From Streptomyces sp. SLBN-31 (GTDB lineage: Bacteria; Actinomycetota; Actinomycetes; Streptomycetales; Streptomycetaceae), in NCBI RefSeq assembly GCF_006715395.1, contig NZ_VFNC01000002.1, positions 806,001 to 870,000 of the forward strand: DNA of 64,000 nucleotides, given 5' to 3'. Below the pieces are notes generated by a model. The model was not told where the DNA came from and searched no databases. It saw only the letters and a list, made by a program, of their open reading frames with translations. Shown in pieces: positions 9,575-63,354 of this stretch. Made by a program: the position numbers and the translations under genes. Within the stretch, counting starts at the first letter, position 1; each line of letters starts with the position of its first letter.

Positions 9575-9610
9575 GGGCCGCCGGGTCTTCGGGCGGGGAC
9601 CGTTCGGCCC
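9575..9610. promoter_or_regulatory. candidate DevR/OsdR-type operator, paired sites
   Basis: GGACCGTTCGGCCC at 9597-9610, with a weaker copy GGGCCGCCGGGTCT 22 bp away at 9575-9588. The pair lies between divergent USP genes (about 90 bp from the left start, 62 bp from the right start). It fits the window-wide motif GGGCCGnnCGGCCC. Confidence 0.55.
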
Positions 9611-9671
9611 TCTGTCGCGGGCCGCGGTCGGCGGGCACGGTGGGGGTCGAACGGACGGAAGGGGATACGGC

Positions 9672-10301
9672 ATGGGGCGAGTGGTCGTCGCGGGCGACGA
9701 CGATTCCGCGGCGGGCCGGGCCGCGGTGGCGTGGGCCGAACGGGAGGCCCGGCTGCGCGGGCTGACGCTGTCTTCGGACGACGTCGCCGGCCGGGACGTG
9801 GAGCTGCTGGTACGGCCCTCACCCGCGGCGGACGCGGGCGGGGCGGTGTCCGCCGTGTCCGGCTCACCCGTCGTCTTCGTGCCCGGTGCCCCGGTTCGGC
9901 TGCCCGACCGGGTGGCGGTCGGCGTCGACGCACGGGATCCGGCACAGGCGGCGATCGGCTTCGCCTTCGAGGCGGCGCGGCTGCGCGGGGCCGGGCTGCA
10001 CGCGGTGCACGCCTGGACGCTCCCCGCCGAGGCCGCCGACACGCCCTTCGCCCTGCCCGAGGAGGACCGTGCGAGGTGGGAGGACCAGGAGGTGCAAGTG
10101 CTGTCGGACGCCCTGCGCCCGTGGCGGGCGCGATACCCGGACGTGGAGGTGCGGCCGGACGTCCTGTCCTTCCCTCCACCCCACGCCCTCACCCACGCCT
10201 CCACCACCGCCGGCCTCCTGGTCCTGGGCCTCCGCACGGGCCGGACGGCGTCGGCGGTACTGGGGGCGGCGCGTTGCGCGGTGGCCGTGGTGGCCGGGTG
10301 A
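9672..10301 (+). CDS. reduced universal stress family protein
   Basis: A 209-residue UspA-like protein starting at ATG 9672 (GAAGGGGATACGGC upstream). It opens like a USP (MGRVVVAGDDDSAAGRAAVAWAEREARLRG), but the first domain is cut to about 75 residues and lacks the usual central helices and GSRG loop. The second domain is fuller (VAVGVDARDPAQAAIGFAFEAARL, then LRPWRARYPDVEVR). Its end, LVLGLRTGRTASAVLGAARCAVAVVAG, has lost the usual GPVAHAVLHHA segment. It may be a non-ATP-binding partner of the divergent intact USP or a gene in decay. The frame is intact and has a plausible ribosome-binding site, so I call it a gene. Confidence 0.68.
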   Translation: MGRVVVAGDDDSAAGRAAVAWAEREARLRGLTLSSDDVAGRDVELLVRPSPAADAGGAVSAVSGSPVVFVPGAPVRLPDRVAVGVDARDPAQAAIGFAFEAARLRGAGLHAVHAWTLPAEAADTPFALPEEDRARWEDQEVQVLSDALRPWRARYPDVEVRPDVLSFPPPHALTHASTTAGLLVLGLRTGRTASAVLGAARCAVAVVAG

Positions 10302-10324
10302 CGGCTGGGGCCGACGCACTCGCC

Positions 10325-10355
10325 TGGCAACCGGTCACCGTCGGGCCCGGCGAGC
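10325..10355 (+). repeat. 31-bp direct repeat, copy 1 (copy 2 at 10431-10461)
   Basis: The two copies differ at 2 of 31 positions (core CCGGTCACCGTCGGGCCCGG) and are 106 bp apart. Both lie in the non-coding stretch between the reduced USP and the hydrogenase genes. Confidence 0.7.
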
Positions 10356-10570
10356 GCGGCGACATGTCACCCGGGCCGTACGGCGCCCGCGGTCGTCGTG
10401 GCGGGTGGCTCCGAGGGCTGCGCGCCGCCGTGGCACCCGGTCACCGTCGGGCCCGGTGAGCACAGCGGAAGGTCGTTGGCCCGCGCCCGGGTCATCTTGC
10501 GCCCTCAGTCGTGTTGCCCCGGTGGCTTCGGAGAAGGTGGAGGCTGCGCACGCGGTGGCCGTGCTCGGTG

Positions 10571-10606
10571 GGGAGGGTCGGCCCGGTGTACGGGTCCGTT
10601 CGGCCC
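10571..10606. promoter_or_regulatory. candidate DevR/OsdR-type operator, paired sites
   Basis: GGGAGGGTCGGCCC (10571-10584) and GGTCCGTTCGGCCC (10593-10606) lie 22 bp apart, and the proximal one ends 36 bp before the maturation protease start. Probably controls hyaD-hypF-hypC. Confidence 0.55.
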
Positions 10607-10642
10607 ATGCCGGGGTGGGGCGCGGCGAACCACCGTGAGGGC

Positions 10643-13694: not shown

Positions 13695-13706
13695 GTCACG
13701 GGCGAG

Positions 13707-13742
13707 TGCCCGGTCGGCTCGTGCGGGAGGGCCGGTCGGCCC
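13707..13742. promoter_or_regulatory. candidate DevR/OsdR-type operator, paired sites
   Basis: A perfect palindrome GGGCCGGTCGGCCC at 13729-13742, plus a weaker TGCCCGGTCGGCTC at 13707-13720 (22 bp offset). The perfect copy ends 74 bp before the start of the hydrogenase structural operon. Confidence 0.6.
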
Positions 13743-13816
13743 CTGCCACGGGCCTGCCCCGACGACCAACCTGAAAGTGGATCCGCGTGACCCGCCTTTC
13801 TACGAGGAGGACCGCC

Positions 13817-14953
13817 ATGACCGCCACCGCAGCGCCGGCCGTGCTCGACCGGGAGGGCCTGGACGCCCTGGTCGCGGCACTGGTGGCACAAGGGCGGACC
13901 GTCGTCGGACCGACCGTCCGCGACGGGGCGGTGGTGCTGGCGGAGCTGACCTCCGCGGACGCGCTGCCCTTCGGCTGGGGAGTGGAGCTGGAGGCCGGGC
14001 GCTACCGGCTGGTGCGGCGGGAGGACGGCGCCGCCTTCGCGCACAGCGCGGGGCCCCAGTCCTGGAAGAACTTCCTGCACCCGGCGCGGGAGCGGTTGTG
14101 GAGCGCCGACCGGAAGCCGGACGGCGAGGTCACCTTCAGCGCCGAGGAGCCGGCCGACCCGTCGTACGCCTTCCTCGGGGTGCGGCCCTGTGATCTGCGG
14201 GCCATTGCGATCCAGGACCGGGTGCTGACCGGGGGACGGTACGAGGACTCCGGCTACGGCAGGCGGCGGTCCGGGGCGCTGCTGATCGCCGCCGAGTGCA
14301 CCGACCCCGGCGCCACCTGCTTCTGCGTCTCCATGGGGGGCGGCCCCGCCGCCGACCCCGGGTACGACCTGGCGCTGACCGAGGTCGTGGACGAACACGG
14401 GCACCGGTTCCTGGTGCGGGTCGGCAGCGAGGAGGGCGCCCGGCTGCTGGCGCGGGTGCCGCATCGCGCGGCCGATCCGGTCACCGAGGACACCGCCCGG
14501 GCCTCGGTGGACGACGCCCGGGACCGTATGGGGCGCTCGATGCCGCCGGTCGACCTGCGGACGCTGATGGGTTCGAGCATGGACGCCGAGCGCTGGAACG
14601 ACGTCGCCGAGCGCTGTCTGACCTGCGGCAACTGCACCATGGTGTGCCCGACCTGCTTCTGCACCACCACGGAGGAGGTCACCGACCTGACCGGTGACCA
14701 CACCGAGCGCTGGCAGCGCTGGGACTCCTGCTTCGACCTGGACTTCTCGTATCTGCACGGCGGGCCGGTGCGCCGTTCGGCCCACAGCCGCTACCGGCAG
14801 TGGCTCACCCACAAACTCTCCACCTGGCACGAGCAGTTCGACACCTCGGGCTGCGTGGGCTGCGGGCGCTGCATCGTCTGGTGCCCCGTCGGCATCGACA
14901 TCACCGAGGAAGTGGCCGCACTCAAGGCCGAGCTCGAAACGGAGACCGACTGA
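13817..14953 (+). CDS. hydrogenase beta subunit (4Fe-4S ferredoxin, HydB/HyhB-like)
   Basis: A 378-residue iron-sulfur subunit of group 3b hydrogenases (sulfhydrogenase beta type). The N-terminal two thirds match the HydB family ([36 protein letters not shown]). The C-terminal part carries two 4Fe-4S motifs, [16 protein letters not shown] and [16 protein letters not shown]. It should pass electrons between the small subunit and the flavin subunit. ATG 13817 has an ideal GAGGAGG site. An upstream in-frame GTG (13787) is less likely. Its stop overlaps the next start as TGATG. Confidence 0.87.
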
Positions 14954-15417
14954 TGCCCCCCTCGATCGCCCTGCGCATGAACCACGCTCTGCCGGCCGAG
15001 CACCGCGAGCGGCTGCTGCGCATCGGCCGTGAGACCGACTTCCCGCAGGGCGCCCGCCTCTTCGAGGAGGGCGGGCACGCCGACCGGTTCTGGATCGTCC
15101 GCAGCGGGACGGTCGCCCTCGACATGCATGTGCCGGGCCGCCGGCCGCCGGTCATCGAGACCATCGGGGTCGGTGACCTCGTCGGCTGGTCCTGGCTGTA
15201 CGAGCCGTTCGTGTGGCAGCTCGGAGCCGGAGCGGTGACCTCGGTGCGGGCCTACGAGTTCGACGCGGTCGCCGTCCGTCTGATGTGCCTGAACGACGCC
15301 GAGTTCGGGCGCGCGGTCGAGCACTGGGTGGGCCGGGTGCTGGCCCACCGGCTCAACGCGGCGCGCGCCCGGCTCGTGGACCTCTACGGCATCTACGAGA
15401 CCAAGGAGGAACGATGA
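14953..15417 (+). CDS. stand-alone cyclic-nucleotide-binding domain protein in hydrogenase operon
   Basis: A 154-residue protein made only of a Crp/Fnr-type effector domain. [25 protein letters not shown] is the beta-roll opening, [17 protein letters not shown] corresponds to the phosphate-binding-cassette side, and a C-terminal helix follows ([19 protein letters not shown]). There is no helix-turn-helix, so it is not a classical regulator. It is a close paralogue of the protein at 36.8 kb (both have [15 protein letters not shown] and RAYEFDA). The start and stop overlap its neighbours by 1-4 bp, so it is made in step with the beta and gamma subunits. It may gate electron flow or the complex in response to a nucleotide; this is inference. 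The usual cAMP-binding Arg-Ser motif is not obvious. Confidence 0.85.
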
Positions 15418-16220
15418 CCGCCGTGCCGGTCCCCCATCGCGTGGTCGCCCGCCGCCCGGAGACCGCGGACACGGTCACGCTGCGCTTCGAGCCGGTCGGC
15501 CGCCCGCTCCCGGACTTCCTGCCGGGACAGTTCGCGATGGTCCACGCCTTCGGCCGCGGCGAGATCCCGGTGTCGGTGAGCTCGGTGCAGGCCACGGGCG
15601 GGCTCGCGCACACCGTGCGGTCGGTCGGCGCGGTCTCCGACGGGCTGTGCGCGGTCCGGGTCGGCGACGTCGTGGGCATCCGCGGGCCGTACGGCACGAG
15701 CTGGGAGCTGGAGCGGGCCCGCGGGCGGGACGTGGTGATCGTGGCGGGCGGCATCGGCTTCGCCCCGCTGCGCCCGCTGATCCTGGGCGCGCTGGCCGAG
15801 CCGGAGGCGTACCGGCGCATCAACGTCCTGATCGGGGCGCGCACCCCGAGCGATCTCATCGCCCGCGCCGAGGTGGCGAGCTGGGCCACGGCGTACACCG
15901 GGGTGACGGTGGACCAGCCCGAGCCGGACTGGCGCGGGGACGTCGGCGTGGTCACCCAGCTGCTGGGGCGGGCCCACTTCGAGCCGGAGGAGACGACGGC
16001 GTTCGTGTGCGGGCCCGAGCCGATGATCCGGGCCACCGCACGCGAACTGATCCAGCACGGCGTGCCCCACGACCGTGTGCAGGTCTCGCTGGAACGCAAC
16101 ATGCGCTGCGCGACCGGGCACTGCGGGCACTGCCAGCTGGGCCCCGTGCTGGTGTGCCAGGCCGGCCCCGTCGTGGACTGGGCGCAGGCCGAACCCCTGC
16201 TCGCGGTAAGGGAGTTGTGA
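15414..16220 (+). CDS. hydrogenase gamma subunit (FAD/NAD(P)-binding, HydG/HyhG-like)
   Basis: A 268-residue ferredoxin-reductase-like protein. The N-terminal FAD barrel ([21 protein letters not shown]) is followed by a nucleotide-binding fold ([26 protein letters not shown]). A C-terminal Cys cluster [20 protein letters not shown] binds a 2Fe-2S centre, as in sulfhydrogenase gamma and dihydroorotate-dehydrogenase electron-transfer subunits. It should exchange electrons with NADP(H) or NAD(H). The ATG overlaps the CNBD stop by 4 bp, and the small-subunit gene begins 1 nt after its stop. Confidence 0.9.
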
Positions 16221-16221
16221 G

Positions 16222-16974
16222 ATGGCACCGAAACTCGCGGTGTTCAAGCTGGCCTCCTGCGACGGCTGTCAGCTCACCCTGCTGGACTGCGAGGACGAAC
16301 TCCTCGCGCTGGCCGGCGAGGTCGAGATCGCGCACTTCCTGGAGGCCACCAGCACGGTGCAGCCGGGCCCGTACGACCTGTCCCTGGTCGAGGGCTCGGT
16401 CACCACGCCGTCCGACGCCGAGCGCATCCGGCAGATCCGGGCCGCCTCCCGGCACCTGGTGACCATCGGCGCGTGCGCGACCGCGGGCGGCATCCAGGCC
16501 CTGCGCAACTTCGCGGACGTCGACGAGTACCGGCGCACCGTCTACGCGCACCCCGAGTACATCGAGACGCTCGCCACCTCCACCCCCGTCTCGGCCCATG
16601 TGGACGTCGACTTCGAGCTGCGCGGCTGTCCGATCGACCGGCGCCAGCTCATCGAGGTGCTCACCGCGTTCCTGGCCGGCCGCAAGCCGGACATCCCCGA
16701 CCACAGCGTGTGCTTCGAGTGCAAGCGGCGCGGCACGGTCTGCGTGACCGTCGCGCACGGCACGCCCTGTCTGGGCCCGGTCACGCACGCCGGCTGCGGG
16801 GCACTGTGCCCGGCGTACCACCGCGGCTGCTTCGGCTGCTTCGGCCCGTCCGGCTCGGTGAACCTGCCCGCGCTGATCCCCGTGCTGCGCCGCGACGGTA
16901 TGGACGACGACGCCGTGGAGCGCTTCCTGCACACCTTCAACGCCCCCGCGTTCGAAAAGGAGATGGGCAAGTGA
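16222..16974 (+). CDS. [NiFe]-hydrogenase small subunit (group 3b-like)
   Basis: A 250-residue small subunit. [19 protein letters not shown] carries the proximal-cluster cysteines (C13, C16), then [15 protein letters not shown] and [10 protein letters not shown] complete that cluster. A Cys-rich C-terminal part ([30 protein letters not shown]) would hold further clusters. There is no Tat signal and no membrane anchor, as expected for cytosolic group 3 enzymes. It is part of an uninterrupted operon, and its TGA overlaps the GTG of the large subunit. Confidence 0.93.
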
Positions 16975-18332
16975 CGCACCGCGGATCCCGTGTCCTGCAC
17001 GTCGGCTCGCTGTCCCGGGTCGAGGGCGAGGGCGCGCTGCGCCTGCACGTGCACGACCGCACGGTCACCGAGGCACGGCTGGAGATCTACGAGCCGCCGC
17101 GCTTCTTCGAGGCGTTCCTGCGCGGCCGGTCCTACACCGAGCCGCCCGACATCACCGCCCGGGTGTGCGGGATCTGCCCGGTGGCCTACCAGATGAGCGC
17201 CTGCGCGGCGATCGAGGACGCCTGCGGGGTCGAGGTGGACCCGGCGATCCGGGATCTGCGCCGGCTGCTGTACTGCGGCGAGTGGATCGAGAGCCAGGCC
17301 CTGCACATCTATCTGCTGCACGCCCCGGACTTCCTGGGCCACCCCAGCGCGATCGACCTGGCCCGCACGCACCGGGCCGAGGTGGAGCGGGGGCTGCGGC
17401 TGAAGAAGGCCGGCAACGACATCATGGAGCTGGTCGGCGGCCGCGCCGTGCACCCGATCAACGTACGGCTGGGCGGCTTCCACCGCGCCCCGGCCCGCAC
17501 CGAACTGCGGCCGCTGCGCGAGGAGTTGCAGCGGGCGCTGGACGACGCGTGGGAGACCGTGCGCTGGGTGGCGGGCTTCGACTTCCCCGAGGCGCGCACC
17601 GACGCGGACCTGCTGGCGCTGGCCGAGGCGGACACGTACGCGATCGAGGGCGGCACACCGACCGTGCTGCGCGCCGACGGCAGCCGCGGCTCCTTCCCCG
17701 TAGGGCAGTTCACCGACCATGTCAGCGAGACCCATGTGGCCCACTCCACCGCGCTGCACTCGCGGCTCGACGGGCGGCTGCATCTGACGGGCTCGCTGGC
17801 CCGGTTCGCGGTCAGCGGCTCCCTGCTGTCGCCGGTGGCGCTGGAGGCGGCCGTGGCGGCGGGGCTCGGTGACCCGCGCGAGGGCGCGGTGTGCCGCAAC
17901 CCGTTCCGGTCCATCCTGGTGCGGGCGGTGGAGGTGGTGTACGCCGTCGGCGAGGCGCTGCGCATCATCGACGGCTACGAGCCGCCCGCGTCCCCGTACA
18001 CCGAGGTGCCGCCGGTGGCGGGCGTCGGGCACGGCGCCACGGAGGCTCCGCGCGGGGTGCTCTACCACCGCTACGAGATCGACGCCGACGGCCTGGTCGC
18101 CGACGCGACGATGGTGCCGCCCACCGCCCAGAACCAGGGTGCGATCGAGGACGACCTGCGCCGGATGGCCCAGGCCGCCATCGGCGAACGCGACCCGGAC
18201 GACGACGAGCTGACGGCCCTGTGCGAACGCGCGATCCGCAACCACGACCCGTGCATCTCGTGCTCCACCCACTTCCTCGACCTGACCGTCGTCCGTACCT
18301 CGGGCCCGACCACGGGAGGCCACCGTGCCTGA
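16971..18332 (+). CDS. [NiFe]-hydrogenase large subunit (group 3b-like)
   Basis: A 453-residue catalytic subunit starting at GTG 16971. The L1 motif is [11 protein letters not shown] (C66 and C69), and the L2 motif is DPCISCSTH near the end (C428 and C431, H434). Together they give the four Cys ligands of the NiFe centre. A 19-residue tail after H434 is the expected target of the maturation protease encoded upstream. Length and operon partners point to the bidirectional, NAD(P)-linked group 3b. One peculiarity is that the residue four after the second L1 Cys is Tyr73, where many NiFe hydrogenases have His. Its last 8 bp overlap the CBS-BON gene. Confidence 0.93.
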
Positions 18333-18951
18333 ATCTCCGTACACCGTGAGCGATGTGATGACGCAGACCGTCATAGCCGTCGGGCGCGACGCCTCCTTCA
18401 AGGAGATCGTCGGCCTGATCGACCAGTGGAAGGTGAGCGCCCTGCCCGTCCTGGTCGGCGAGGGCCGGGTCATCGGCGTGGTCTCCGAGGCGGATCTGCT
18501 GCCCAAGGAGGAGTTCCGCGACGGGGGCGAGGAGGACGCGGAGCGCGCCGAGCGGCAGAAGGCGGCCGCGCTGACCGCGGGCGAGCTGATGAGCACCCCC
18601 GCGGTGACCGTGCACGCCGATGCCTCCGTCGCCGAGGCCGCCCGCATCATGGCCCGCCGGCACGTCAAGCGGCTGCCGGTGGTGGACTCGGTGGGCATCC
18701 TGCAGGGCGTGGTCAGCCGCAGCGACCTGCTGAAGGTCTTCCTGCGGGACGACGAGGAGATCGCCGAGGAGGTCCGGCACAGCGTCCTGGGCCAGCTGCC
18801 GATCACCACTCCCCTGACGGTGAGCGTGGCCGACGGTGTGGTCACCCTCGGCGGCGTGCTGCCCGACCGTACCCTCGTGCCGATCGTGGCGCGGGCGGTG
18901 CGGGCCGTGGAGGGTGTCGTGGACATCCGGCTGGACCTGACGCACCGATGA
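18325..18951 (+). CDS. CBS-pair + BON domain protein in hydrogenase operon
   Basis: A 208-residue protein with two CBS motifs ([25 protein letters not shown] and [25 protein letters not shown]) and a C-terminal BON domain ([18 protein letters not shown]). CBS pairs bind adenine nucleotides and act as energy sensors, while BON domains often mediate lipid or protein contacts. The GTG start (18325) overlaps the large-subunit end, and the stop overlaps the hypD ATG, so it is translated together with the enzyme. It is very similar to the CBS-BON protein at 37.3 kb (shared LPKEEFRD and [17 protein letters not shown]). Confidence 0.9.
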
Positions 18952-20054
18952 AATACCTCGACGAGTACCGCGACCCGGCGCTCGCCCGGCGGCTGCTGGA
19001 GGAGCTGCGGCGCACGGCCGGCCGGCCCTGGCGGATCATGGAGGTGTGCGGCGGTCAGACGCACACCCTCGTCCGCCAGGGCATCGACGAGCTGCTGCCC
19101 GCCGGGATGCGGATGATCCACGGCCCCGGCTGCCCGGTGTGCGTCACCCCGCTGGAGACCCTCGACCGAGCCATGGCGATCGCCGCCCGCCCCGGCGTTA
19201 TCTTCACCAGCTTCGGGGACATGCTGCGCGTGCCCGGCAGCGAGACCGACCTGCTGTCCCTGCGGGCGCGCGGCGCCGACGTCCGGGTGGTGTACGCCCC
19301 GATGGACGCCGTGCGCCTGGCCGCAGCGAACCCCGACCGGGAGGTCGTCTTCCTCGCGGTCGGCTTCGAGACGACGGCGCCCGCGAACGCCACGGCCGTC
19401 CTGCACGCGGCCCGGCTGGGGCTGACGAACTTCTCCATGCTGGTCAGCCATGTCCTGGTGCCGCCGGCGATGACCGCGCTGCTGGAGGACCCCGACTGCG
19501 AGGTGCAGGCGTTCCTGGCGGCCGGGCATGTGTGCGCGGTGATGGGCTGGACCGAGTACGAGCCGATCGCGGCCCGCTACCGGGTGCCGATCGTGGTGAC
19601 CGGCTTTGAGCCGCTGGACCTCCTGGAGGGCGTCCTGATGGCCGTCCGGCAGCTGGAGGGGGGCCGCTTCGAGGTCGAGAACCAGTACGTACGGGCCGTG
19701 CGCCGCTCGGGCAACACCGACGCCCAGGAGGCCGTACGGAAGGTCTTCCAGGTCACCGACCGGTCCTGGCGCGGCATCGGGGCGCTGCCGGACAGCGGGC
19801 TCGAACTCGCCGACGCCTACGCCGGGTTCGACGCCGCCCGCCGGTTCGACGTGGGCGGGCTGCGGCCCGTGGAGGACCCCGAGTGCATCGCGGGCGCCAT
19901 CCTGACCGGCGCCCGGCTGCCCACCGACTGTCCCGCGTACGGCACCCGCTGCACGCCCCGTCATCCCCTCGGCGCGCCCATGGTGTCGTCCGAGGGCACG
20001 TGTGCCGCCTTCCACGCGGCCGGACGCACCGCTTCGGCGAGGAGCACACCATGA
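18948..20054 (+). CDS. hypD: hydrogenase maturation protein HypD
   Basis: A 368-residue HypD, the 4Fe-4S scaffold that with HypC assembles Fe(CN)2CO. Canonical motifs are [48 protein letters not shown] and the late Cys-rich [24 protein letters not shown]. Length is normal. It is coupled by ATGA overlaps to the CBS-BON gene before it and hypE after it. Confidence 0.96.
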
Positions 20055-23022: not shown

Positions 23023-23134
23023 CCTCCCCAGGGTCCCCGGGTGCGGCCGGCGGAGGCAGGGGCCGAGGGTCCCGGTGCGCGGCCTGTGCGGCCCTCTTCC
23101 GGCTCTCCGGTCCCCGGCCGGCCGACAACGCGGG

Positions 23135-23169: not shown

Positions 23170-23220
23170 TGGGAGCCCTGGGCGGGGAGCGGTTCGCTGG
23201 AAGTGTGGGAGGAGGATGCC

Positions 23221-36716: not shown

Positions 36717-36717
36717 T

Positions 36718-46453: not shown

Positions 46454-46466
46454 CGTCCCGGCCGGC

Positions 46467-51031: not shown

Positions 51032-51095
51032 AGGAAGCCCTCCGGACTCCGAGACGACCTCTCCAGCTTCGACGCCCCGGCCAGCCCACTGCCAT

Positions 51096-51130
51096 GGGTC
51101 ATGTGACCCCCGGGTGGGGCCGGGTGGATC
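51096..51130. promoter_or_regulatory. candidate DevR/OsdR-type operator, paired sites
   Basis: The perfect palindrome GGGTCATGTGACCC (51096-51109) keeps the DosR-box geometry with other inner bases. GGGCCGGGTGGATC lies 21 bp further out (51117-51130). The proximal site is 65 bp before the P-type ATPase start. Confidence 0.5.
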
Positions 51131-51874: not shown

Positions 51875-53283
51875 CCGCCTTCCGGCGCCGCGTGGGCGTC
51901 GAGGAACTCGGCGGGCAGCATGGACAGTTGGCTGCGCGGCAGGGTGAGCAGCACCTGCCAGGCGCGCTCCAGTGTCTGCTCCAGCGTGCGCCGTTCGTCG
52001 CGGCGCTGGTGGACGAAGCCGTGCGCGAACGCCTCGTCGAAGGCCAGGTAGCGGCGGTCGGTGGGGCTCAGCGCCGCCTGCCCGACCAGATCGGCCAGCT
52101 CCCGGACCTGGCGGGCCCGGGCCAGTGCGGCGAGCAGCTGGGCGGCGACATCGAGGTGGTCGTCGCGGGTGCGGCCGGGGCCGGCGCCCTTGCGCATGAG
52201 CCGGGACAGCGAGGACAGGGCGTCGACCGGCGGGTAGACGCCCTTGGCGTGCATCTCGCGGGAGAGCACGACCTGTCCTTCGGTGATGTACCCGGTGAGG
52301 TCGGGGACGGGGTGGGTGATGTCACCGGCCGGCATGGTGAGCAGCGGCAGCACGGTCACCGACCCCGGCAGCCCGCGGATGCGTCCGCAGCGCTCGTAGA
52401 GGGACGCGAGGTCGCTGTAGAGGTAGCCGGGGTAGGCGCGGCGGGCCGGGATCTCGCCGCGGGCCGCGGAGACCTCGCGCAGCGCCTCGGCGTAACTGGT
52501 CATGTCGGTCATCACCACCAGCACATGCCGGCCGCCGGTGAACGCCAGCTCCTCGGCGATCGTCAGCGCGATGCGCGGGGTGAGGATGCGTTCGATCACC
52601 GGGTCGGCGGCGGTGTTGAGCAGCAGCACCAGTTCGCCCGCCGCGGAGCGCTCCTCCAGCGCGTCGCGCACGAAACCGGCGTCCGCGTGGGTGACTCCCA
52701 TGGCGGCGAACACCACGCTGAACGGCTCTCCCCCGGCCGTCGACTGGGCCGCGATCTGCGCGGCCAGCTCCAGGTGCGGCAGGCCCGCCGCGGAGAACAC
52801 CGGCAGCTTCTGACCGCGTACGAGGGTCGTCAGGGCGTCCACCGCGCTGACCCCGGTGAGCACCGGTTCGGCCGGCGGCTCGCGGCGCACGGGGTTGACG
52901 GGGTTGCCGCCGACCGCCGAGGTGGTGGAGCCGAAGACGGGCGGGCCTCCGTCGAGCGGTTCGCCGCGGCCGTTGCAGACCCGGCCGAGCCAGCCGGGGC
53001 CCACCGGGATCCGCAGCGGCGTGCCGGTGAAGGCGGCCCGGATGCGCGCCGGATCGATCTCGGCGGTGTCCTGAAGCACCTGTACGACGGCGGTGCCGCG
53101 GTCGACGTCGAGGACGAGTCCGTGCCGTTGCTCGCCGGAGTCGAGGGTGAACAGCACGAACTCGTCCCAGCCGACGCCCTCGACCTTGTCGACGACGACG
53201 AGGGGGCCGTGCAGTTCACGGATGGAGGTGTACTCGACGAGGCCCCAGCCCCGCGTGTCCTGCGTGTCCCGCGTGTCCGTCAT
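51871..53283 (-). CDS. atpB: V/A-type ATPase subunit B
   Basis: A 470-residue regulatory (non-catalytic) head subunit: VEYTSIRELHGPLVVVDKVEGVGWDEFV at the start, GRVCNGRGEPLDGGPP, PVFSAAGLPHLELAAQIAAQ in place of a Walker A loop, VVMTDMTSYAEALREVSAARGEIPARRAYPGYLYSDLASLYERCGRI, and MPAGDITHPVPDLTGYITEGQ. Absence of a P-loop with otherwise full conservation is the hallmark of B. Start and stop overlap A and D by 4 bp each, implying coupled translation. Confidence 0.95.
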   Translation of the reverse strand: MTDTRDTQDTRGWGLVEYTSIRELHGPLVVVDKVEGVGWDEFVLFTLDSGEQRHGLVLDVDRGTAVVQVLQDTAEIDPARIRAAFTGTPLRIPVGPGWLGRVCNGRGEPLDGGPPVFGSTTSAVGGNPVNPVRREPPAEPVLTGVSAVDALTTLVRGQKLPVFSAAGLPHLELAAQIAAQSTAGGEPFSVVFAAMGVTHADAGFVRDALEERSAAGELVLLLNTAADPVIERILTPRIALTIAEELAFTGGRHVLVVMTDMTSYAEALREVSAARGEIPARRAYPGYLYSDLASLYERCGRIRGLPGSVTVLPLLTMPAGDITHPVPDLTGYITEGQVVLSREMHAKGVYPPVDALSSLSRLMRKGAGPGRTRDDHLDVAAQLLAALARARQVRELADLVGQAALSPTDRRYLAFDEAFAHGFVHQRRDERRTLEQTLERAWQVLLTLPRSQLSMLPAEFLDAHAAPEGG

Positions 53284-55016
53284 GTCAGCTCCCCCAGTCG
53301 GTCGAGCATGCTCCGGCCGAGTGCCCGTACGGTGTCCGCGTCGTGCGGTCCCGCTTCCTCGCGGGCGCGCAGTACGGGGGTGAAGTCGGCGTCCTCGATG
53401 TGGGCCGCGGGCACTCCGGCGTCGGCCAGTTCGCGGCAGCGGTCGACCACGCCGAGGACCGCCTCGGCCAGTGCGGCCGTCTTCTCCGCTCCGCTGTAGG
53501 CGTCCCGCCGCGACAGGGCGCTCTGCTGGAGGACCCCTTCGCGGACGAGCCGGCCGCCCAGGACGCTGACGCGCTCCTGCGCGGGCAGCGCGGTGATGCC
53601 GACGAGGTCGACGAGGTCGGCGAGCCGGTCGGCCTCGGCGAGCAGACCGGCGACCCGGGCACGCCGGGCCGGCCAGTCCGGGTCGTCGGTGGCGGCGCGG
53701 CGGGCGCCGAGGGCCTCGGCGTCGCGGGAGAAGGACTCCGCCCAGGAGACGGCCGGGTAGTGGCGGGCGTAGGCGAGTTCGCGGTCCAGGGTCCACAGGC
53801 AGCGCACGAAGCGCTGGGTGTGCGCGGTGACCGGTTCGGCCATGTCGCCGCCGGGCGGGGACACCGCGCCGATGACGGTCACCGAGCCGCTGCGGCCGCC
53901 GAGGGTGGTGACCGCGCCGGCCCGCTCGTAGAACGCGGCGATCGCCGAGGCGAGACCGGCCGGGTAGCCCTCCTCGGCGGGCAGGGCGCCGGTGCGGGAG
54001 GCGAACTCGCGCAGCGCCTCCGCCCAGCGGGAGGTGGAGTCGGCGATGACGACCACGTCCAGGCCCATGTCCCGGAAGTACTCGGCGACCGTCACGCCCG
54101 TGTGGATGCTGGCCTCGCGGGCCATCATCGGCATGTTGGACGTGTTGGCGACGATCACGGTCCGGTCGGCGAGCCGGCCGCCGGTGCGCGGGTCGGTGAG
54201 GGCGCCGAACTCGTCGATGACGTCGGCCATCTCGTTGCCGCGTTCGCCGCAGCCGACGTAGACGATGACGTCGGCGTCGCACCACTTGGCGATCTGCTGC
54301 AGCAGTACGGTCTTGCCGGTGCCGAAGCCGCCGGGGACGGCGACGGTGCCGCCGAGGGCCACCGGGAAGAGCAGGTCGATGGCGCGCTGCCCGGTGCCCA
54401 GGGCGCGGGGGGAGTCGAGGCGTTCGCGGACAGGTCGGGGGGTGCGGACGGGCCAGGGAGTGGTCATGCGTACGGCCGTGCCCGCGACGGATGCGACGAC
54501 GGCGTCAGCGGGGTGGCGGCCGGCGTCGGCGACGTGGTCCACGGCGCCGGACCGGCCGGGCGGCACCAGCACCTCGAGCGGCACGGGTCCGGGGCCGTGG
54601 ATCTCTCCGAGTACGTCGCCCTGCGCGACGAGGTCGCCCGCCGAGGCCCGTGGCACGAACTCCCACTGGCGTGCCGGGCCGCTCCCGCGGCCGGCGGCGC
54701 CGGGTTCCAGCCAGGCGCCGGCCGTCGCGAGGGGGCGCAGCAGGCCGTCGAAGACCCCGCCCAGCAGGCCCGGGCCGAGCGGCGCGGACAGGGGGCGGCC
54801 GAGCGGGCGGGCCCGCGCGCCGGGGGCCAGGCCGCCCGTGTACTCGTACGCCTGGACGGTGACGACCCCGTCCCGGATGGCGACGACCTCACCGGGCAGT
54901 TCCGCCTCGCCCAGCGCGACCAGGTCGTTCATCGCGGTGCCGGTGACGTACTCGGCCTCCACGAGGGGGCCGGCGACGCGCAGGATGCGGCCGTCCGCCG
55001 ACGACACGTCCGTCAT
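53280..55016 (-). CDS. atpA: V/A-type ATPase subunit A (catalytic)
   Basis: A 578-residue catalytic head subunit. Walker A is GGFGTGKTVLLQQIAKWCDAD (P-loop near residue 230), followed by VYVGCGERGNEMADVIDEF with the catalytic Glu, VVVIADSTSRWAEALREFASRTGALPAEEGYPAGLAS, and VSPPGGDMAEPVT. The roughly 100-residue bulge domain specific to V/A-type A subunits is present between residues 110 and 200. Length is normal. Start and stop overlap E and B by 4 bp. All nucleotide-binding residues look intact, so the complex should be active. Confidence 0.96.
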   Translation of the reverse strand: MTDVSSADGRILRVAGPLVEAEYVTGTAMNDLVALGEAELPGEVVAIRDGVVTVQAYEYTGGLAPGARARPLGRPLSAPLGPGLLGGVFDGLLRPLATAGAWLEPGAAGRGSGPARQWEFVPRASAGDLVAQGDVLGEIHGPGPVPLEVLVPPGRSGAVDHVADAGRHPADAVVASVAGTAVRMTTPWPVRTPRPVRERLDSPRALGTGQRAIDLLFPVALGGTVAVPGGFGTGKTVLLQQIAKWCDADVIVYVGCGERGNEMADVIDEFGALTDPRTGGRLADRTVIVANTSNMPMMAREASIHTGVTVAEYFRDMGLDVVVIADSTSRWAEALREFASRTGALPAEEGYPAGLASAIAAFYERAGAVTTLGGRSGSVTVIGAVSPPGGDMAEPVTAHTQRFVRCLWTLDRELAYARHYPAVSWAESFSRDAEALGARRAATDDPDWPARRARVAGLLAEADRLADLVDLVGITALPAQERVSVLGGRLVREGVLQQSALSRRDAYSGAEKTAALAEAVLGVVDRCRELADAGVPAAHIEDADFTPVLRAREEAGPHDADTVRALGRSMLDRLGELT

Positions 55017-55540
55017 GGTGCCCACAGCTCCTCCGCCTCCCCGTCGATGCGGTCCAGCGCCCGCAGGGCGAGCGCGGTCAGGTCGCACTCGAGCCTGCGG
55101 TCCGCCGTACGTCCCCTGACTCCCCCGCGCGGGGCCTCGGTGACCTCGGCCTCCGGGCCGAGCGCGGCGCGTACGTGCGCGGCCATCCGGGCGCGCAGAG
55201 CCGGGTAGGAGTCCGCGTGGCGCAGTTCCTCCACGCCGGCCACCACCCGTCGGCGCAGTTCCTCCCAGCACTCCCGGCGGGCGGCGAGTTCGCGGGCGCG
55301 GGCGGTGCGGCGGGCCCGGGACCGGACGGCGTCGCGGGCCGCGGCCGCGTCGGCCTCGCCCATGCCGCGGGCCTCGTCCAGAATCGCGGCGGCCTGCCCG
55401 TCGGCCTCGGCGAGCACGGCCCGGACGTCGGCATCGGCCGCGGCCGACAGAGCGTCGGCCTCGGCTCGCGCGGCGCGCAGCAACTGCGCCCGCACCGGTT
55501 CCAGCGCGACGTCGGCCGAGCCCAAAGGCGGGTTCCTCAT
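55013..55540 (-). CDS. atpE: V/A-type ATPase subunit E (peripheral stalk)
   Basis: A 175-residue protein with a long Ala/Arg/Glu-rich helix (ADALSAAADADVRAVLAEADGQAAAILDEAR to about residue 95) and a small C-terminal globular part ending DLTALALRALDRIDGEAEELWAP. This is the pattern of subunit E, which forms the peripheral stalk with a G/H-type partner. It is placed by gene order (F-E-A-B-D) as much as by sequence. Its ATG overlaps the stop of a 29-codon open frame, and its own stop overlaps the atpA start. Confidence 0.82.
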   Translation of the reverse strand: MRNPPLGSADVALEPVRAQLLRAARAEADALSAAADADVRAVLAEADGQAAAILDEARGMGEADAAAARDAVRSRARRTARARELAARRECWEELRRRVVAGVEELRHADSYPALRARMAAHVRAALGPEAEVTEAPRGGVRGRTADRRLECDLTALALRALDRIDGEAEELWAP

Positions 55541-55626
55541 ACCGGCACCACCACCCCGAACGGCATCTGACCACCGAGGGCATCGGCATCGCCCCGGGCG
55601 GCACGCGGCGACCGCGCGGCCCTCAT
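55537..55626 (-). CDS. 29-codon coupled mini-ORF inside the V-ATPase operon
   Basis: Between subunits F and E lies the only apparent gap of the operon. A 29-codon frame fills it exactly: its ATG (55626) overlaps the F stop as ATGA, and its TGA overlaps the E start as ATGA. The peptide is basic at first and hydrophobic at the end (QMPFGVVVPV). It may be a coupling peptide, a tiny subunit, or the displaced C-terminal tail of F (F is short at 73 residues) left in another frame. No family was recognised. Confidence 0.4.
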   Translation of the reverse strand: MRAARSPRAARGDADALGGQMPFGVVVPV

Positions 55627-55844
55627 GGCGGCATCACCGCCACCAGCGGCTCCTGGCCCTCGATGGCCTCGGGGTCGAGGGCGTCGGCGGCGGCAGGGGT
55701 GAGGAGGACCAGGTCGACGTCCGGCGGCAGGTCCCGCCAGGCGGCGCGCGCGGCGGCCGGACCCTCGGCGGGGCTCAGCAGGACGCCCGCGGACGCCAGT
55801 CCGAGGATGCGCAGGGGTTCGCCCATCGCCGCGATGTGTCCCAT
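55623..55844 (-). CDS. atpF: V/A-type ATPase subunit F-like (short)
   Basis: A 73-residue protein: EPLRILGLASAGVLLSPAEGPAAARAAW, then LPPDVDLVLLTPAAADAL and PLVAVMPP at the end. This is the Rossmann-like N-terminal domain of V/A-type subunit F, which sits on the central shaft and couples to D. Usual F subunits are about 100 residues and have a C-terminal helix that is missing here. It lies 2 nt after subunit K, and its stop overlaps the mini-ORF that leads into E. The identification rests on the fold pattern and the position in the operon. Confidence 0.72.
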   Translation of the reverse strand: MGHIAAMGEPLRILGLASAGVLLSPAEGPAAARAAWRDLPPDVDLVLLTPAAADALDPEAIEGQEPLVAVMPP

Positions 55845-55846
55845 GG

Positions 55847-57685
<1,839 letters not shown>

Positions 57686-57702
<17 letters not shown>

Positions 57703-58621
57703 CGAACGCCTCCCCGGCCCGGCCCTCGTGCGCGGCGGCCAGCAGGGCGGCGCGCAGCCGCCAGGCGTCGGCGGACAGCACGGCGACGGCGCCCACGACG
57801 GGGGTCACGCCGAAGTCCGCCTTGTGCAGCATCTCCAGGCCGTCCCGTTCGACGGCGGCCCACCAGCGGGCCTCGGCGCGCCACAGGTCGGCGGGCCGCC
57901 CGGTGTCCTTCAGCGCCCAGCGCGCCGCCGAGGGCAGGCGGGCGCGGAAGTCGTCGTAGGAGACGGCCCGTACGGCGGACCGGCCGAGGATGCGCTCGGC
58001 GTGTCCGGCGGCCCGTCCGGTCGGCGGACGGTCCAGGACGTAGGACTCGCGGGCCAGCATCAGCGCGGTGTCCCCCGCCGCCCAGCGGGCCGCCTGCGGC
58101 AGGTCGGCCACGATGCCGACGGCGGCGGACAGCCGCATCCCGGTCAGTACGGCCGTCGCGGACTCGCCGCCGGGGTCCCCCCAGGGCGAGGCGGTCAGCA
58201 CGGCCCGCACCCCGCGCGCGTCGGCCGTCCGCGCCAGTCGGGGCCAGGCGGTGGCGAGCGCGCCCAGGCGGTACGGGGCCGGGCACGGCTCCCCGGCCAG
58301 GGCGCGCAGATGGTCGCGGGTGTTGGCGATCTCGAAGCCGGCGGCGAGCCGGCGCAGGGCGGCGACACCCGCCAGGGGCTGCCATCCGGCGAGCACGCGC
58401 AGCTGCCACAGGAGGGCGGCGGAGACCGCGCGGCACGCCGCGGCGGGCTCGGCCTCGGCCTCCGTCTCGCGGACCTTGCGGTAGCGGGTGTTCGCCAGGG
58501 CGCGCAGGGCCTCGGTCAGGCCGGCGGAGGCGGCCAGCTCCCGAGCTGCGTCGGGGCCGAGACGTCCGACGGCCATGGACCTGGCCCGTGTCACCCCCGC
58601 GACCCAGCCGGCGCCCATCAC
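57686..58621 (-). CDS. atpC: V/A-type ATPase subunit C (V0 d/AC39 family)
   Basis: A 311-residue, mostly helical protein: TRARSMAVGRLGPDAARELAASAG at the N-terminus, LRALANTRYRKV, GFEIANTRDHLRALAGEP in the middle and VAVLSADAWRLRAALLAAAH near the C-terminus. The ArSMA..RLG opening, ANT.Y and late A.RLR..L..A blocks match the V-ATPase C/d funnel subunit that links the shaft to the proteolipid ring. Sequence identity to well-studied members is probably low, but position between the stalk gene and subunit I supports the call. Confidence 0.83.
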
Positions 58622-58627
58622 GGCCTC

Positions 58628-59080
58628 CTACTCCGGTCCGCCCCGCTCGGCGGACAGGCCCAGGTCGGCGGCCACCCGCGCCACGATCCGCGCGGCGAGG
58701 GCGGGGGTCCGGGCGCGTGCCCGTGCCCGCAGCGCCTCCGTCTCGCGCCGCGACACGGCGTCCGCCCGCTCGGCCTCGGCGGTGGCCTCCCGCCGTATGC
58801 GGGCCGCGGTCTCGTTCCTGACGTCCAGGGCCCGTGCCCGCGCGGCCCGCACGATTTCCTCGGCCTGTCGCCGCGCGGCCCGGCGCCGCTGGTCGGCCTC
58901 GTGGGCCGCCTCGGCGCGGATGCGGTCGGCGTCGGCCGCCGTGTCGTCCAGCCAGGTCAGCGGGGGCTGCAGTTCGGTCGTGAGTTCGTCCGACCGGTCG
59001 GCGGGGACACCGCCCGGCGCGGCCGGACCGGGCGAGCCGGCCGGCCTGAGTCGTATGCGGAACTCGCGGAACCCGGGCAT
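58628..59080 (-). CDS. V/A-type ATPase peripheral-stalk coiled-coil protein (G/H-like)
   Basis: A 150-residue protein with a polar, Pro-rich first third (FREFRIRLRPAGSPGPAAPGG) and then a continuous charged helix (DADRIRAEAAHEADQRRRAARRQAEEIVRAARARALDV, ending before LAARIVARVAADLGLSAE). Such a helix is expected for the G/H partner of subunit E. It is the first gene of the nine-subunit operon, 6 nt before subunit C. The N-terminal extension is longer than in common G/H subunits. Confidence 0.75.
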   Translation of the reverse strand: MPGFREFRIRLRPAGSPGPAAPGGVPADRSDELTTELQPPLTWLDDTAADADRIRAEAAHEADQRRRAARRQAEEIVRAARARALDVRNETAARIRREATAEAERADAVSRRETEALRARARARTPALAARIVARVAADLGLSAERGGPE

Positions 59081-59154
59081 GAGAACCTCCGGACCCGGCG
59101 CGGGTGCCCGCCGTGGCCCACTCTCACGCTACGAAGGCGGCCGGAGGTCTTCCA

Positions 59155-59189
59155 GGGCTGTTCGCCCCGTAGAAGGGACCGGTCGGCCC
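59155..59189. promoter_or_regulatory. candidate DevR/OsdR-type operator, paired sites
   Basis: GGGCTGTTCGCCCC (59155-59168) and GGACCGGTCGGCCC (59176-59189), 21 bp apart, lie between the divergent V-ATPase operon (74 bp from its start) and the CBS-BON gene (74 bp from its start). The element could switch both. Confidence 0.55.
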
Positions 59190-59263
59190 TGGAAGCGGCC
59201 ACCGTGTCGGCGAGACGGTAGGACCAGGAGGGGTGTGGTCTCCACGCACGCTGGGAGGTAGCC

Positions 59264-61042: not shown

Positions 61043-61194
61043 CACGCACCTCCCCTCGCGGCCGCCGCTCCCGGTCTCGACGCGGGTGATGACGGCGGCA
61101 GCTCGGGGCGGCGAAGGTGTCACGGCCGGCAAGCGCGGGCGGACACACCCACCGCTCCGGTCACCAGCCTGCCCCGACAGGCCGTGCTCCCCCA

Positions 61195-61230
61195 GGGCCG
61201 GACGGGTCCCAACAGCGCACCGTCCGGCCC
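61195..61230. promoter_or_regulatory. candidate DevR/OsdR-type operator, paired sites
   Basis: GGGCCGGACGGGTC (61195-61208) and GCACCGTCCGGCCC (61217-61230), 22 bp apart, lie between divergent USP genes. Each has one strong half. Confidence 0.4.
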
Positions 61231-61331
61231 TCCCACCGCCGTCGGGCCCGGGGCGACGCTGGAAGAAACGGACCGAGGGGGACCTGGACGCGGTGCCGCG
61301 GCACGGCCGTCGTACCGCCGGGAGGTGCGCC

Positions 61332-62195
61332 ATGACCGGACCCGTCGTCGTCGGAGTCGACGGCTCCCCCGCCGGCACGACCGCCGCGTGGTGGGCCGCC
61401 CGGGAAGGCATGACCAGGCGGCTGCCGGTGCTCCTGGTCCACTCGTGGACCACCCAGCCGTTGAACGTGCCGGTCGCGCAGGAGGCCTTGAGCAAACAGC
61501 ACTACGGGCAGGGCCTGCTGCTGCGGATCGAGGCCGAACTGCTGCACCGCTACGGCGAGCTGAGCCTCACGACCGAGCTGGTGGAGGTCTCCGCGTCGCA
61601 GGCCCTGCTGGAACACAGTGAGCGGGCCGCCCTGCTCGTGCTCGGCTCCCGCGGACACGGTTCGGCCGCGAGCTTCCTCCTCGGCTCCCACAGCCTGCAC
61701 ATCTTGGGCCTGTCGCGGTGTCCCGCCGTCATCGTCAGGGCCGGCGATCCGGCCGTCGGGACCGGCTGGGGGCATCCGGGCACGGAGCGGGGCGACGTCG
61801 TGGTCGGCGTCGAGCCGGGGCCGGGCGCCGACGCCCTGCTGGAGTTCGCCTTCACCACCGCCGAGGCGCACGGCTGCGGCGTCCACGCGGTACGGGCCCT
61901 CCCTCACCAGTACACGGTCGCGACCGGTCGGCAGGCGGAGCAGGGCGCGGTGGACCGCGCGCGGCTCACGGCCTCTCTGGCACCGTGGCGCGAGAAGTTC
62001 CCCGGCGTTCCCCTCGTCGACGAGGTGACGGCGGGGCCTGCGGCCCAGGTGCTGCTGTCCGCCGCCACGCGGGGCCGGCTCACCGTGGTGGGGCGCCGCC
62101 GGCACTCGTCCCACCTCACCTGGAAGCTCGGACCCGTCGCGCACGCCGTGCTGCACCACGCGCCGTGCCCGGTCGCCGTGGTCCCGCACGACTGA
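61332..62195 (+). CDS. universal stress protein, tandem UspA domains
   Basis: A 287-residue USP. Domain 1 opens with TGPVVVGVDGSPAGTTAAWWAAREG and contains VLGSRGHGSAASFLLGSHSLHILG. Domain 2 has VVVGVEPGPGADALLEFAFTTAEAHG, LAPWREKFPGVPLVDEV and VVGRRRHSSHLTWKLGPVAHAVLHHAPCPVAVVPHD. ATG 61332 has GGGAGGTGCGCC upstream. It ends 13 nt from the convergent nitroreductase gene. Confidence 0.91.
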   Translation: MTGPVVVGVDGSPAGTTAAWWAAREGMTRRLPVLLVHSWTTQPLNVPVAQEALSKQHYGQGLLLRIEAELLHRYGELSLTTELVEVSASQALLEHSERAALLVLGSRGHGSAASFLLGSHSLHILGLSRCPAVIVRAGDPAVGTGWGHPGTERGDVVVGVEPGPGADALLEFAFTTAEAHGCGVHAVRALPHQYTVATGRQAEQGAVDRARLTASLAPWREKFPGVPLVDEVTAGPAAQVLLSAATRGRLTVVGRRRHSSHLTWKLGPVAHAVLHHAPCPVAVVPHD

Positions 62196-62208
62196 CACTC
62201 TCCGCGGG

Positions 62209-63249
62209 TCAACCGCCCGGGACGATCTCCAGGACCTGCTCAACGGGCCGCCGCGGGCTCGCGACCCCCGCGGGGCCGTAACCGAGGCGCAGCACCATCT
62301 GGACGAAGCCCATGCCCGAGACGGGGTCGCGGGCCAGCTCGCGCAGGTCCTGACGTTCCAGGCTGTGCGAGGTGAGCGAGGTGGCCAGCCCGTGGAGGGT
62401 GGCCAGCAGCAGGACCCGTTCCATCGCCTCTCCGGCGCGCAGCCAGTCGGCGGGGTGGTCGTGGGTGGTGCCGAGCAGGGCCAGGTTCGGGACGGTCTCG
62501 AAGACGGCCGCGGGACGGCCGGGCAGGGGCCGGCGGCCGGCGAAGTCCCGCACCGGGGCGCGGCCTCCCCGTTTGCTCGGCCCGAAGGCGTAGTCCGGGA
62601 CCCCGTCCACGGCGGCGTCGGTCTCCTGCGGACCGACACGGGTCCAGGCGCGCATCTCCGCCATGTACGCGGCGTCGAAGTCGTCGCGTCCCTCGGCGTC
62701 GCGGACGTCGTCCAGCAGCGACTCGATGTGCCATCTGTCGGGGAACACCAGCCGCGTCCCCTCCTGTTCGGCCGCGTGCCGCAGGGTTTCCTGCACGGCG
62801 GCCGGGACCGGCCGGTCCTCGAACGGGTGGCGGCTGGTGTGGCGCCGGCTGATCACCGCGAAGAGCCGGGCCAGTTCGCGGTCGGGGTGGTCGGTGTCGG
62901 TGACGCGCACGGTGGCGAGCAGCTGCCGGTCCGTGGGATCGGGCAGCAGCCGGACGTGCGCGTCCCGGCCGCCGTCGGCCGCGGCGACGCGCAGGTTGAA
63001 CAGGGCGGCGCCGCACCCCAGGTGCAGACCCCGCAGGTCGGGGTCGAACCGCGGCATCGTCCGCTCGAGGTCGGCCCGCAGTTCGAGCGTGTCGCCGCCG
63101 GCGACGTGCCGGAACCGCCAGGGCTGGGCGTTGTGCAGGGACGGGGCGGCCGTGGCCGCGGCCACCAGGGCCGTGACCGTCGTGGTGTCCAGTGGTCGCG
63201 CGAGCCCGGGGTGCGTCCTTCCGGGCTCGGAGCCGTGGTTCCCCTTCAT
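62209..63249 (-). CDS. Acg-family nitroreductase-like FMN protein (third copy)
   Basis: A 346-residue Acg-type protein: ATAAPSLHNAQPWRFRHVAG near the start, CGAALFNLRVAAADGG, SRRHTSRHPFEDRPVP, DWLRAGEAMERVLLLATLHG and VQMVLRLGYGPAGVASPRR. It resembles the copy at 39.6 kb more than that at 22 kb in its C-terminal YGPxGxASPRR motif. The start is ATG 63249, preceded by GGAAGGGGCC. Two DevR-like sites 22 bp apart lie 70-105 bp upstream. Confidence 0.88.
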   Translation of the reverse strand: MKGNHGSEPGRTHPGLARPLDTTTVTALVAAATAAPSLHNAQPWRFRHVAGGDTLELRADLERTMPRFDPDLRGLHLGCGAALFNLRVAAADGGRDAHVRLLPDPTDRQLLATVRVTDTDHPDRELARLFAVISRRHTSRHPFEDRPVPAAVQETLRHAAEQEGTRLVFPDRWHIESLLDDVRDAEGRDDFDAAYMAEMRAWTRVGPQETDAAVDGVPDYAFGPSKRGGRAPVRDFAGRRPLPGRPAAVFETVPNLALLGTTHDHPADWLRAGEAMERVLLLATLHGLATSLTSHSLERQDLRELARDPVSGMGFVQMVLRLGYGPAGVASPRRPVEQVLEIVPGG

Positions 63250-63318
63250 GGCGGCCCCTTCCTCTCGCTCGGACCGCTCTATTGGAAAAGCCTCGCCCCG
63301 GCCGGCCGGCCGGGGGTA

Positions 63319-63354
63319 GGGGCCATCGGGTCTCGGCGGTGGCCCATCAGGCCC
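63319..63354. promoter_or_regulatory. candidate DevR/OsdR-type operator, paired sites
   Basis: GGGGCCATCGGGTC (63319-63332) and GGCCCATCAGGCCC (63341-63354), 22 bp apart, upstream of the nitroreductase on the reverse strand and downstream of it the GH65 gene end. Confidence 0.45.

Follow-up and report, generated by a model that had tools for sequence, protein, structure and literature searches.

Within a 64,000-nucleotide stretch of the Streptomyces sp. SLBN-31 genome (C2:806001-870000 of 9.47 Mb; hereafter the window, from whose first letter positions are counted), 18 promoters of one common layout are predicted at a composite score T>=16: a distal palindromic box, 20-22 bp farther a proximal box centred near -42.5/-43.5, often a TG at -35/-34, a -10 hexamer [G/C]AnnnT and a GGA-like discriminator. 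Very probably these promoters are switched on, in a class II layout, by a phosphorylated response regulator of the OsdR/DevR family. The hydrogenase, HycI and V-type ATPase operons fall with stress proteins into one predicted regulon. The box, the regulator, the gene island and the osdR dependence of three promoters are already published for S. coelicolor: the main text of Urem et al. (2016; PMC5069765) gives the GC-rich consensus AGGGCCGATCGGCCCT, OsdR binding to such a site and three promoters that were poorly or not active in the osdR mutant.

Gene calling by a GC-position script gave 63 open reading frames (ORFs) in the window, of which a Pfam scan covered 60, the other three being short (65-129 aa). 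The encoded proteins include Usp, CBS, cNMP-binding, Acg/Rv3131-family and Rv2632c-like proteins, hydrogenase, V/A-ATPase and a P-type ATPase.

Location and pairing of the boxes

A sequence-only reading of the window had listed 17 sites of one palindromic element and proposed that they were tandem DevR/OsdR-type sites. Its bare pattern GGGnCnnnnGnCCC was not enriched window-wide (12 found versus 12.6 in shuffles); therefore an independent matrix was built from 19 S. coelicolor OsdR sites printed in PMC5069765, with nothing from the window included (Table 1 of that paper holds 26 site sequences, from which six and one duplicate were excluded by eye under no stated rule). At a matrix score of >=8, 16 places were found in the 5.2 kb of intergenic DNA of the window versus 13 in its 58.8 kb of coding DNA, and at >=11 nine versus four. 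As background, the same genome was sampled at random in 15 stretches of 20 kb (300 kb; ~0.3 Mb of 9.47 Mb): at >=11, nine places fell in 263 kb of coding DNA, and the motif was not equally dense in unrelated intergenic DNA, at least in the sample examined (one place in 36.6 kb, versus 18 in the 12.6 kb of intergenic DNA of the window's right flank). The sites are real, and the signal resides in their location and arrangement, not in the frequency of the bare pattern.

For seven of 16 boxes (16 of the 17 listed were analysed) a partner box scoring >=3 lay 18-22 bp away, while control offset windows omitting 20-22 bp gave a partner to none or one of the 16. Among 203 non-redundant intergenic boxes, drawn from this genome's island, the third osdR locus and 15 relatives, partners at 20, 21, 22 and 23 bp numbered 13, 26, 33 and 7, and any other offset from 9 to 69 bp gave 0-6 (pairs with both boxes above threshold being counted twice). 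The pairing proposed earlier holds, but the actual spacing is 20-23 bp, mostly 21 or 22 bp, rather than 20-22 bp.

Palindromic boxes matching the published OsdR consensus lie upstream of genes. Most window boxes read GGGCCG-NN-CGGCCC or GGACCG/GGTCCG-NN-CGGCCC. The outer GGGnC/GnCCC is largely common with the M. tuberculosis-type DevR box GGGACTnnAGTCCC, whose A/T inner bases beside the GGG/CCC ends are absent from most window boxes.

A composite promoter model

Five-letter words 3' of the boxes showed a sharp GCTGG peak at +25 to +30, with CGCTG and ACGCT peaking about one box period farther. Expectation-maximisation seeded with GCTGGAA led to the motif [G/C]A...TGG(A), starting 22-24 nt past the box, or 43-45 nt past it if the box chosen was the distal one. 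A wide pattern, CGGCCC-N22..34-GCTGG, was of no use across the genome: it matched 569 times forward and 468 times in reverse, less often than a backward control (780 and 815).

A composite promoter model (distal box, proximal box and -10; score T) was trained exclusively on relatives: of 145 sequences, 121 passed, and a distal box was present in 82. In the window it gave 21 matches at T>=16: 17 that precede a gene, HycI, which was counted apart because its upstream region lay inside an ORF call, and three with no gene downstream. In the flanks (80 kb), 14 matches at this score precede a gene. The random stretches (300 kb) held none at T>=16 and four at T>=12, one of them before a gene; moreover, 91 kb of 30 loci chosen for CGGCCC-N22..34-GCTGG held none at T>=12. 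In the window's 20 longer intergenic segments, 21 matches at T>=14 were observed, versus a mean of 0.01 and a maximum of 1 in 200 dinucleotide shuffles. The pattern might be suspected to be a composition artefact of a 74% GC genome, given that the bare pattern is not enriched window-wide; at the composite level this explanation is contradicted by the random stretches and the shuffles, and we give it next to no credence.

All 17 listed coordinates were inspected. Thirteen of them (9597, 10593, 13729, 23156, 28368, 34545, 36739, 38700, 39527, 44469, 46467, 59176 and 61217) sit in composite promoters of T>=16 with a downstream gene; 34885 (T 15.1 toward its gene, poor -10), 63341 (T 12.9) and 51096 (T 8.2) are weaker, and 45168 was dismissed as it has no composite match >=8. 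Two composite promoters, 44422(-) and 23066(-), were absent from the earlier list. On the whole, the tandem sites of the sequence-only reading are borne out by the published-site matrix, the pairing and the composite model, and comparison with the published OsdR sites gives the same box as that in the main text of Urem et al.

The probable -10 element and avoidance of T at -12

A second set of 78 loci (1.51 Mb; Streptomyces and close genera, with one Actinomadura, L177) shares <2% of sampled 60-mers with the training or own DNA; two of the original 80 loci (L121 and L159) were dropped because they overlapped own or training DNA. In this set the S. coelicolor matrix alone found 466 non-redundant oriented boxes. 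AnnnT stood in the -11/-7 register at gaps 22, 23 and 24 of 66, 83 and 14 of these boxes (mean elsewhere 5.6) and at gaps 43, 44 and 45 of 21, 39 and 38, while on box sides without a gene start gaps 22 and 23 gave 8 and 6 of 269. For the 241 boxes with AnnnT in one of five registers (22, 23, 43, 44, 45), the implied start would have C at -1 in 47% and a purine at +1 in 73%, and positions -6/-5/-4 favour G, G and A. TG occurs at -35/-34 in 61 and at -36/-35 in 23 of the 149 boxes of gaps 22 and 23, in the same register at both gaps. In this genome 27 of the 32 T>=16 promoters with a gene read [G/C]A...T, a count inflated by the model's own preference.

The base before the A of AnnnT is T in only three of the 241 (mostly streptomycete); for comparison, T makes up 9.6% of spacer bases (binomial p 8.8e-8) and 10.6% of the bases that precede AnnnT elsewhere. 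Since start sites of S. coelicolor in general carry TANNNT in 80.4% of cases, according to the available text of PMC4895711, the missing T-12 marks the OsdR promoter class. The same contrast could mean that the hexamer, rather than being a -10, is recognised by a second factor or by an alternative sigma factor. On the other hand, the A-11/T-7 register, the C-1/R+1 start and the TG at -35/-34 fit a housekeeping-type promoter; moreover, of the seven DosR -10 regions of M. tuberculosis for which the available text of PMC5360333 gives mapped starts, four are readable as [G/C]AnnnT and none as TAnnnT (our own reading, one base off the authors' hexamers). We therefore regard a second factor or alternative sigma as unlikely, and if the hexamer is the -10, the position of the proximal box would fit a class II activator promoter.

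In the OsdR/DevR mechanism that we favour, two dimers of the phosphorylated regulator would bind next to each other, at a distance of about two helical turns; the proximal dimer, centred near -42.5/-43.5, would overlap -35 and act through class II contacts with RNA polymerase. The -10 [G/C]AnnnT would keep the A-11 and T-7 read by a housekeeping-type sigma factor while avoiding T-12, so that almost no activity would be expected of the promoter unless the activator is bound. A single box pair may serve two divergent promoters, each using its own nearer box as the proximal one: in the 78 loci, 62 places have one pair with T>=16 on both sides. In the window, such shared pairs lie at 9574-9611, 59154-59190 and 61194-61231, where the proximal box of one gene is the distal box of its divergent neighbour; a fourth, at 10570-10607, has no gene on its minus side.

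A third set of 64 loci came from other families of the class; 41 of these hold a strict box, with 82 boxes in total. Among 96 non-redundant oriented boxes of this set, the two corresponding gaps gave AnnnT 14 and 16 times versus a mean of 2.1, and partners that match >=7 of the 8 fixed bases numbered 10, 12 and 6 at spacings of 21, 22 and 23 bp. T stood before the A in 8 of 30 boxes at the two gaps versus 2 of 149 in the streptomycete set (p 9e-6), and over five registers in 17 of 46 (13 loci) versus 3 of 241 (p 1e-12); the genomes are mixed and boxes within one genome are not independent, so that these figures make a group-level statement. Thus other families have the same layout yet allow T: the layout is common, while the avoidance of T-12 looks streptomycete-specific.

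The regulator

The window encodes an OsdR/DevR-type response regulator (38797-39498, plus strand; receiver and LuxR/GerE helix-turn-helix, PF00072 and PF00196). Its best solved relative is M. tuberculosis DevR (3c3w, E 2.5e-71), and its closest named relative among the matches listed is that of S. panaciradicis (99% identity). This orthologous regulator carries the DevR recognition stretch KTVKN unchanged, whose lysines and asparagine we take to contact DNA. That the element precedes the regulator's own gene, as read earlier, is confirmed at the sequence level: the predicted osdR promoter (38699-38742, plus strand; T 18.1) has a single box at 38699-38714 (score 18.8) and a -10 CATGAT at 38737-38742. 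The idea of a "GC-adapted code", however, finds no counterpart in the protein: with KTVKN identical to that of M. tuberculosis DevR, an altered recognition stretch is ruled out as the cause of the GC-rich inner bases, and OsdR also binds upstream of M. tuberculosis DevR-regulon genes per the main text of Urem et al. (PMC5069765).

The boxes might instead be bound by another NarL/LuxR-type regulator of the strain, and streptomycetes are indeed rich in NarL-type regulators (at least about 70 matches to the window regulator in most same-genus genomes). Three observations nevertheless speak for an OsdR paralogue: i) the matrix was built on predicted binding sites of S. coelicolor OsdR, of which some had been tested by electrophoretic mobility shift assay in the account given by the main text of PMC5069765; ii) both in this genome and in relatives, the boxes concentrate near osdR genes; iii) the KTVKN stretch is kept. 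Binding by a regulator other than an OsdR paralogue is hence quite improbable.

Two further osdR paralogues lie at C2:908933 and C1:3242773, making three in the genome. No histidine kinase was found among the 60 Pfam-scanned window ORFs, and none adjoins the window regulator, which may therefore be served by a distant kinase. A GAF-GAF-HisKA_3 kinase is encoded near paralogue 2 (L063:15908-17602), with a GAPDH gene in between, and a GAF-type kinase-like ORF, recognised by eye, adjoins the third paralogue (C1 near 3242773).

Hydrogenase and V-type ATPase operons

The [NiFe] hydrogenase operon (13817-21085, plus strand; Pfam) encodes Fe-S, cNMP and NAD-binding proteins, the small and large subunits, a CBS-BON protein, HypD and an AIRS/HypE-like protein; its start, ATG 13817, was picked by eye, the script start being 13841. 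The subunits are sulfhydrogenase-like in NCBIfam, under equivalog cut-offs. The predicted promoter (13706-13772, plus strand; T 25.8) consists of boxes at 13706-13721 and 13728-13743 and a -10 CAACCT at 13767-13772. Of 199 genomes sampled from the genus, 37 carry the hydrogenase Fe-S gene, this genome among them. Thirty hydrogenase loci were examined, of 38 matches in 37 genomes (own included): a promoter of T>=14 is conserved in all 11 with >=82% identity (own included), and in only 3 of the 19 more distant ones (<=79% identity). The predicted promoter of the maturation genes HycI/HypF (10570-10636, plus strand; T 26.9) has boxes at 10570-10585 and 10592-10607 and a -10 CACCGT at 10631-10636. 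The predicted HycI start, 10643, coincides with the ATG, and the mRNA may be leaderless.

The V/A-type ATPase operon (51245-59080, minus strand; Pfam/NCBIfam) comprises the I, C, E, A, B and D subunits and small genes; its first two genes (57686-59080; 311 and 150 aa) had no Pfam or NCBIfam match at the cut-off used. It would be transcribed divergently from a CBS gene on the plus strand (59126-59219; T 28.1 and 22.5) over common boxes at 59154-59169 and 59175-59190, with -10 TAGCGT at 59126-59131 (minus) and GACGGT at 59214-59219 (plus). Among the 199 genomes sampled from the genus, 18 have the subunit A gene, counting this one. In 10 of 17 relatives the operon head carries a T>=16 promoter, located 4.0-4.2 kb upstream of subunit A; the other seven have none, one of them (L319) being cut by a contig end.

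The sequence-only reading had placed the V-ATPase, hydrogenase and ion-pump operons in one regulon. The predictions agree for the first two; the ion pump is weak, since the site GGGTCATGTGACCC before the P-type ATPase (51095-51110, minus strand) has a box score of -7.3 and T 8.2. It was dismissed as a firm member, and regulon membership of the P-type ATPase is doubtful.

Several points weigh against this account as a whole. First, three T>=16 matches in the window (10577-, 34869- and 34891-) have no downstream gene, and the 20 kb surrounding the third osdR paralogue hold only one T>=16 match. Second, the training relatives contain orthologues of window promoters and the composite test is therefore not fully independent of the window, as the S. 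coelicolor matrix test and the shuffles are. Third, AnnnT falls in one of the five registers in only 241 of 466 boxes, so that nearly half fail; at gap 22 the T of the -35 TG is also the box's own last base; and the start positions presume that the hexamer begins at -12. Fourth, any of the three osdR paralogues may be the acting one. Finally, T-12 is kept in the V-type ATPase promoter (TAGCGT), the promoter at 23163 reads TTCGCT, and five of the ten V-ATPase promoters of relatives begin with TA (two TAnnnT, three TACCAA), which tells against a universal rule.

Other predicted promoters in the window

Divergent Usp/Usp promoters are predicted at two places: 9545-9641 (common boxes 9574-9589 and 9596-9611; -10 GACGCT at 9545-9550 on the minus and CACGGT at 9636-9641 on the plus strand; T 33.0 and 27.1) and 61166-61260 (common boxes 61194-61209 and 61216-61231; -10 CAGGCT at 61166-61171, minus, and GACGCT at 61255-61260, plus; T 26.2 and 31.7). 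Promoters with a box pair of their own on each strand are predicted at 23030-23198 (minus: boxes 23059-23074/23080-23095, -10 23030-23035; plus: boxes 23134-23149/23155-23170, -10 TTCGCT 23193-23198; T 23.9 and 24.1) and, divergently, at 44386-44511 (minus: boxes 44415-44430/44437-44452, -10 44386-44391; plus: boxes 44446-44461/44468-44483, -10 GAGACT 44506-44511; T 23.8 and 17.1).

On the minus strand, candidate promoters precede a GNAT/acyl-CoA synthetase gene at 25590-28283 (28316-28382; boxes 28345-28360 and 28367-28382, -10 28316-28321; T 25.2) and a Usp gene with its 3' end at 33557 (34494-34559; boxes 34524-34539 and 34544-34559, -10 34494-34499; T 23.4). A phosphoketolase gene adjoins the GNAT/acyl-CoA synthetase fusion with its OsdR-type promoter (25590-30790), and the two possibly form an ATP-yielding route by way of acetyl-phosphate and acetyl-CoA. 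On the plus strand, candidate promoters precede the cNMP-binding and CBS-BON genes (36717-36782; boxes 36717-36732 and 36738-36753, -10 GACCCT 36777-36782; T 17.9), an Acg/Rv3131-family FMN oxidoreductase gene (NF047509; 39506-39570; boxes 39506-39521 and 39526-39541, -10 CACCCT 39565-39570; T 23.1) and an Rv2632c-like gene (PF08962; 46466-46509; single box 46466-46481, -10 CAGGCT 46504-46509; T 23.7).

The weaker cases comprise a box pair before a SulP-family transporter gene at 34974-36716 (34884-34921, plus strand; box scores 11.0 and 7.9; T 15.1, poor -10), which reaches T 21.3 when read on the minus strand, with no gene start downstream of it there, and a marginal pair before a second Acg/Rv3131-family gene (63318-63355, minus strand; T 12.9). 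Beyond the window, a pyruvate:ferredoxin oxidoreductase-like gene (PF01558; L063:4022-4570, with following genes) has a weaker composite site (T 12.6).

Comparison with known systems

The S. coelicolor OsdR regulon, as the main text of PMC5069765 presents it, resembles the window in its box AGGGCCGATCGGCCCT, in an island with Usp, Crp-like, nitroreductase and PPDK genes and in a box before osdR. Unlike that system, the window osdR is without a neighbouring kinase and is one of three paralogues in this genome. The main text of Urem et al. does not use the words "ATPase", "hydrogenase", "spacing", "tandem" or "transcription start", and no promoter layout was found in it.

M. tuberculosis DevR/DosR, in the available text of PMC3029386 and PMC5360333, shares with the present promoters at least two closely packed boxes, the proximal one over -35, with cooperative binding, as well as a single pair between divergent genes (tgs1-Rv3131) and non-consensus -10s; members of its regulon, the Rv3131- and Rv2632c-like families, are also among the predicted targets here. 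It differs in the AT-rich inner bases of its box, GGGACTTNNGNCCCT being the DosR consensus used for M. smegmatis (PMC6448022). In the Dos regions of M. smegmatis, the [NiFe] hydrogenase Hyd3, a cation P-type ATPase and PEP synthase are hypoxia-induced with Dos genes, a likeness to the window, whereas a V-type ATPase is not named, going by the available text of PMC2799521.

No report was found in the open-licence literature of a streptomycete layout with the [G/C]AnnnT -10, T-12 avoidance or V-ATPase membership. A search of open-licence papers for V-type ATPase in Streptomyces returned nothing relevant, nor, among the matches listed, did one for OsdR with start sites, hydrogenase or tandem, a weak search since "OsdR" also matches rice gene names.

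We judge it an even call whether the streptomycete DevR-type promoter is a fixed activator-only design, in which T-12 is selected against while A-11, T-7, the GGA discriminator and a -35 TG remnant are kept, so that a change at -12 alone would make it leak, and which in this strain would drive hydrogenase and V-type ATPase as an energy module for oxygen starvation. With this analysis a loose motif becomes a promoter grammar that can be tested and that would predict, base by base, the targets of a dormancy regulator in a streptomycete. The predicted oxygen-starvation programme gains a hydrogenase and a V-type ATPase, and the avoidance of T-12 provides an easy way to test how such promoters would be kept silent before the activator arrives. 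Moreover, the same layout is seen in other sampled families of the class.

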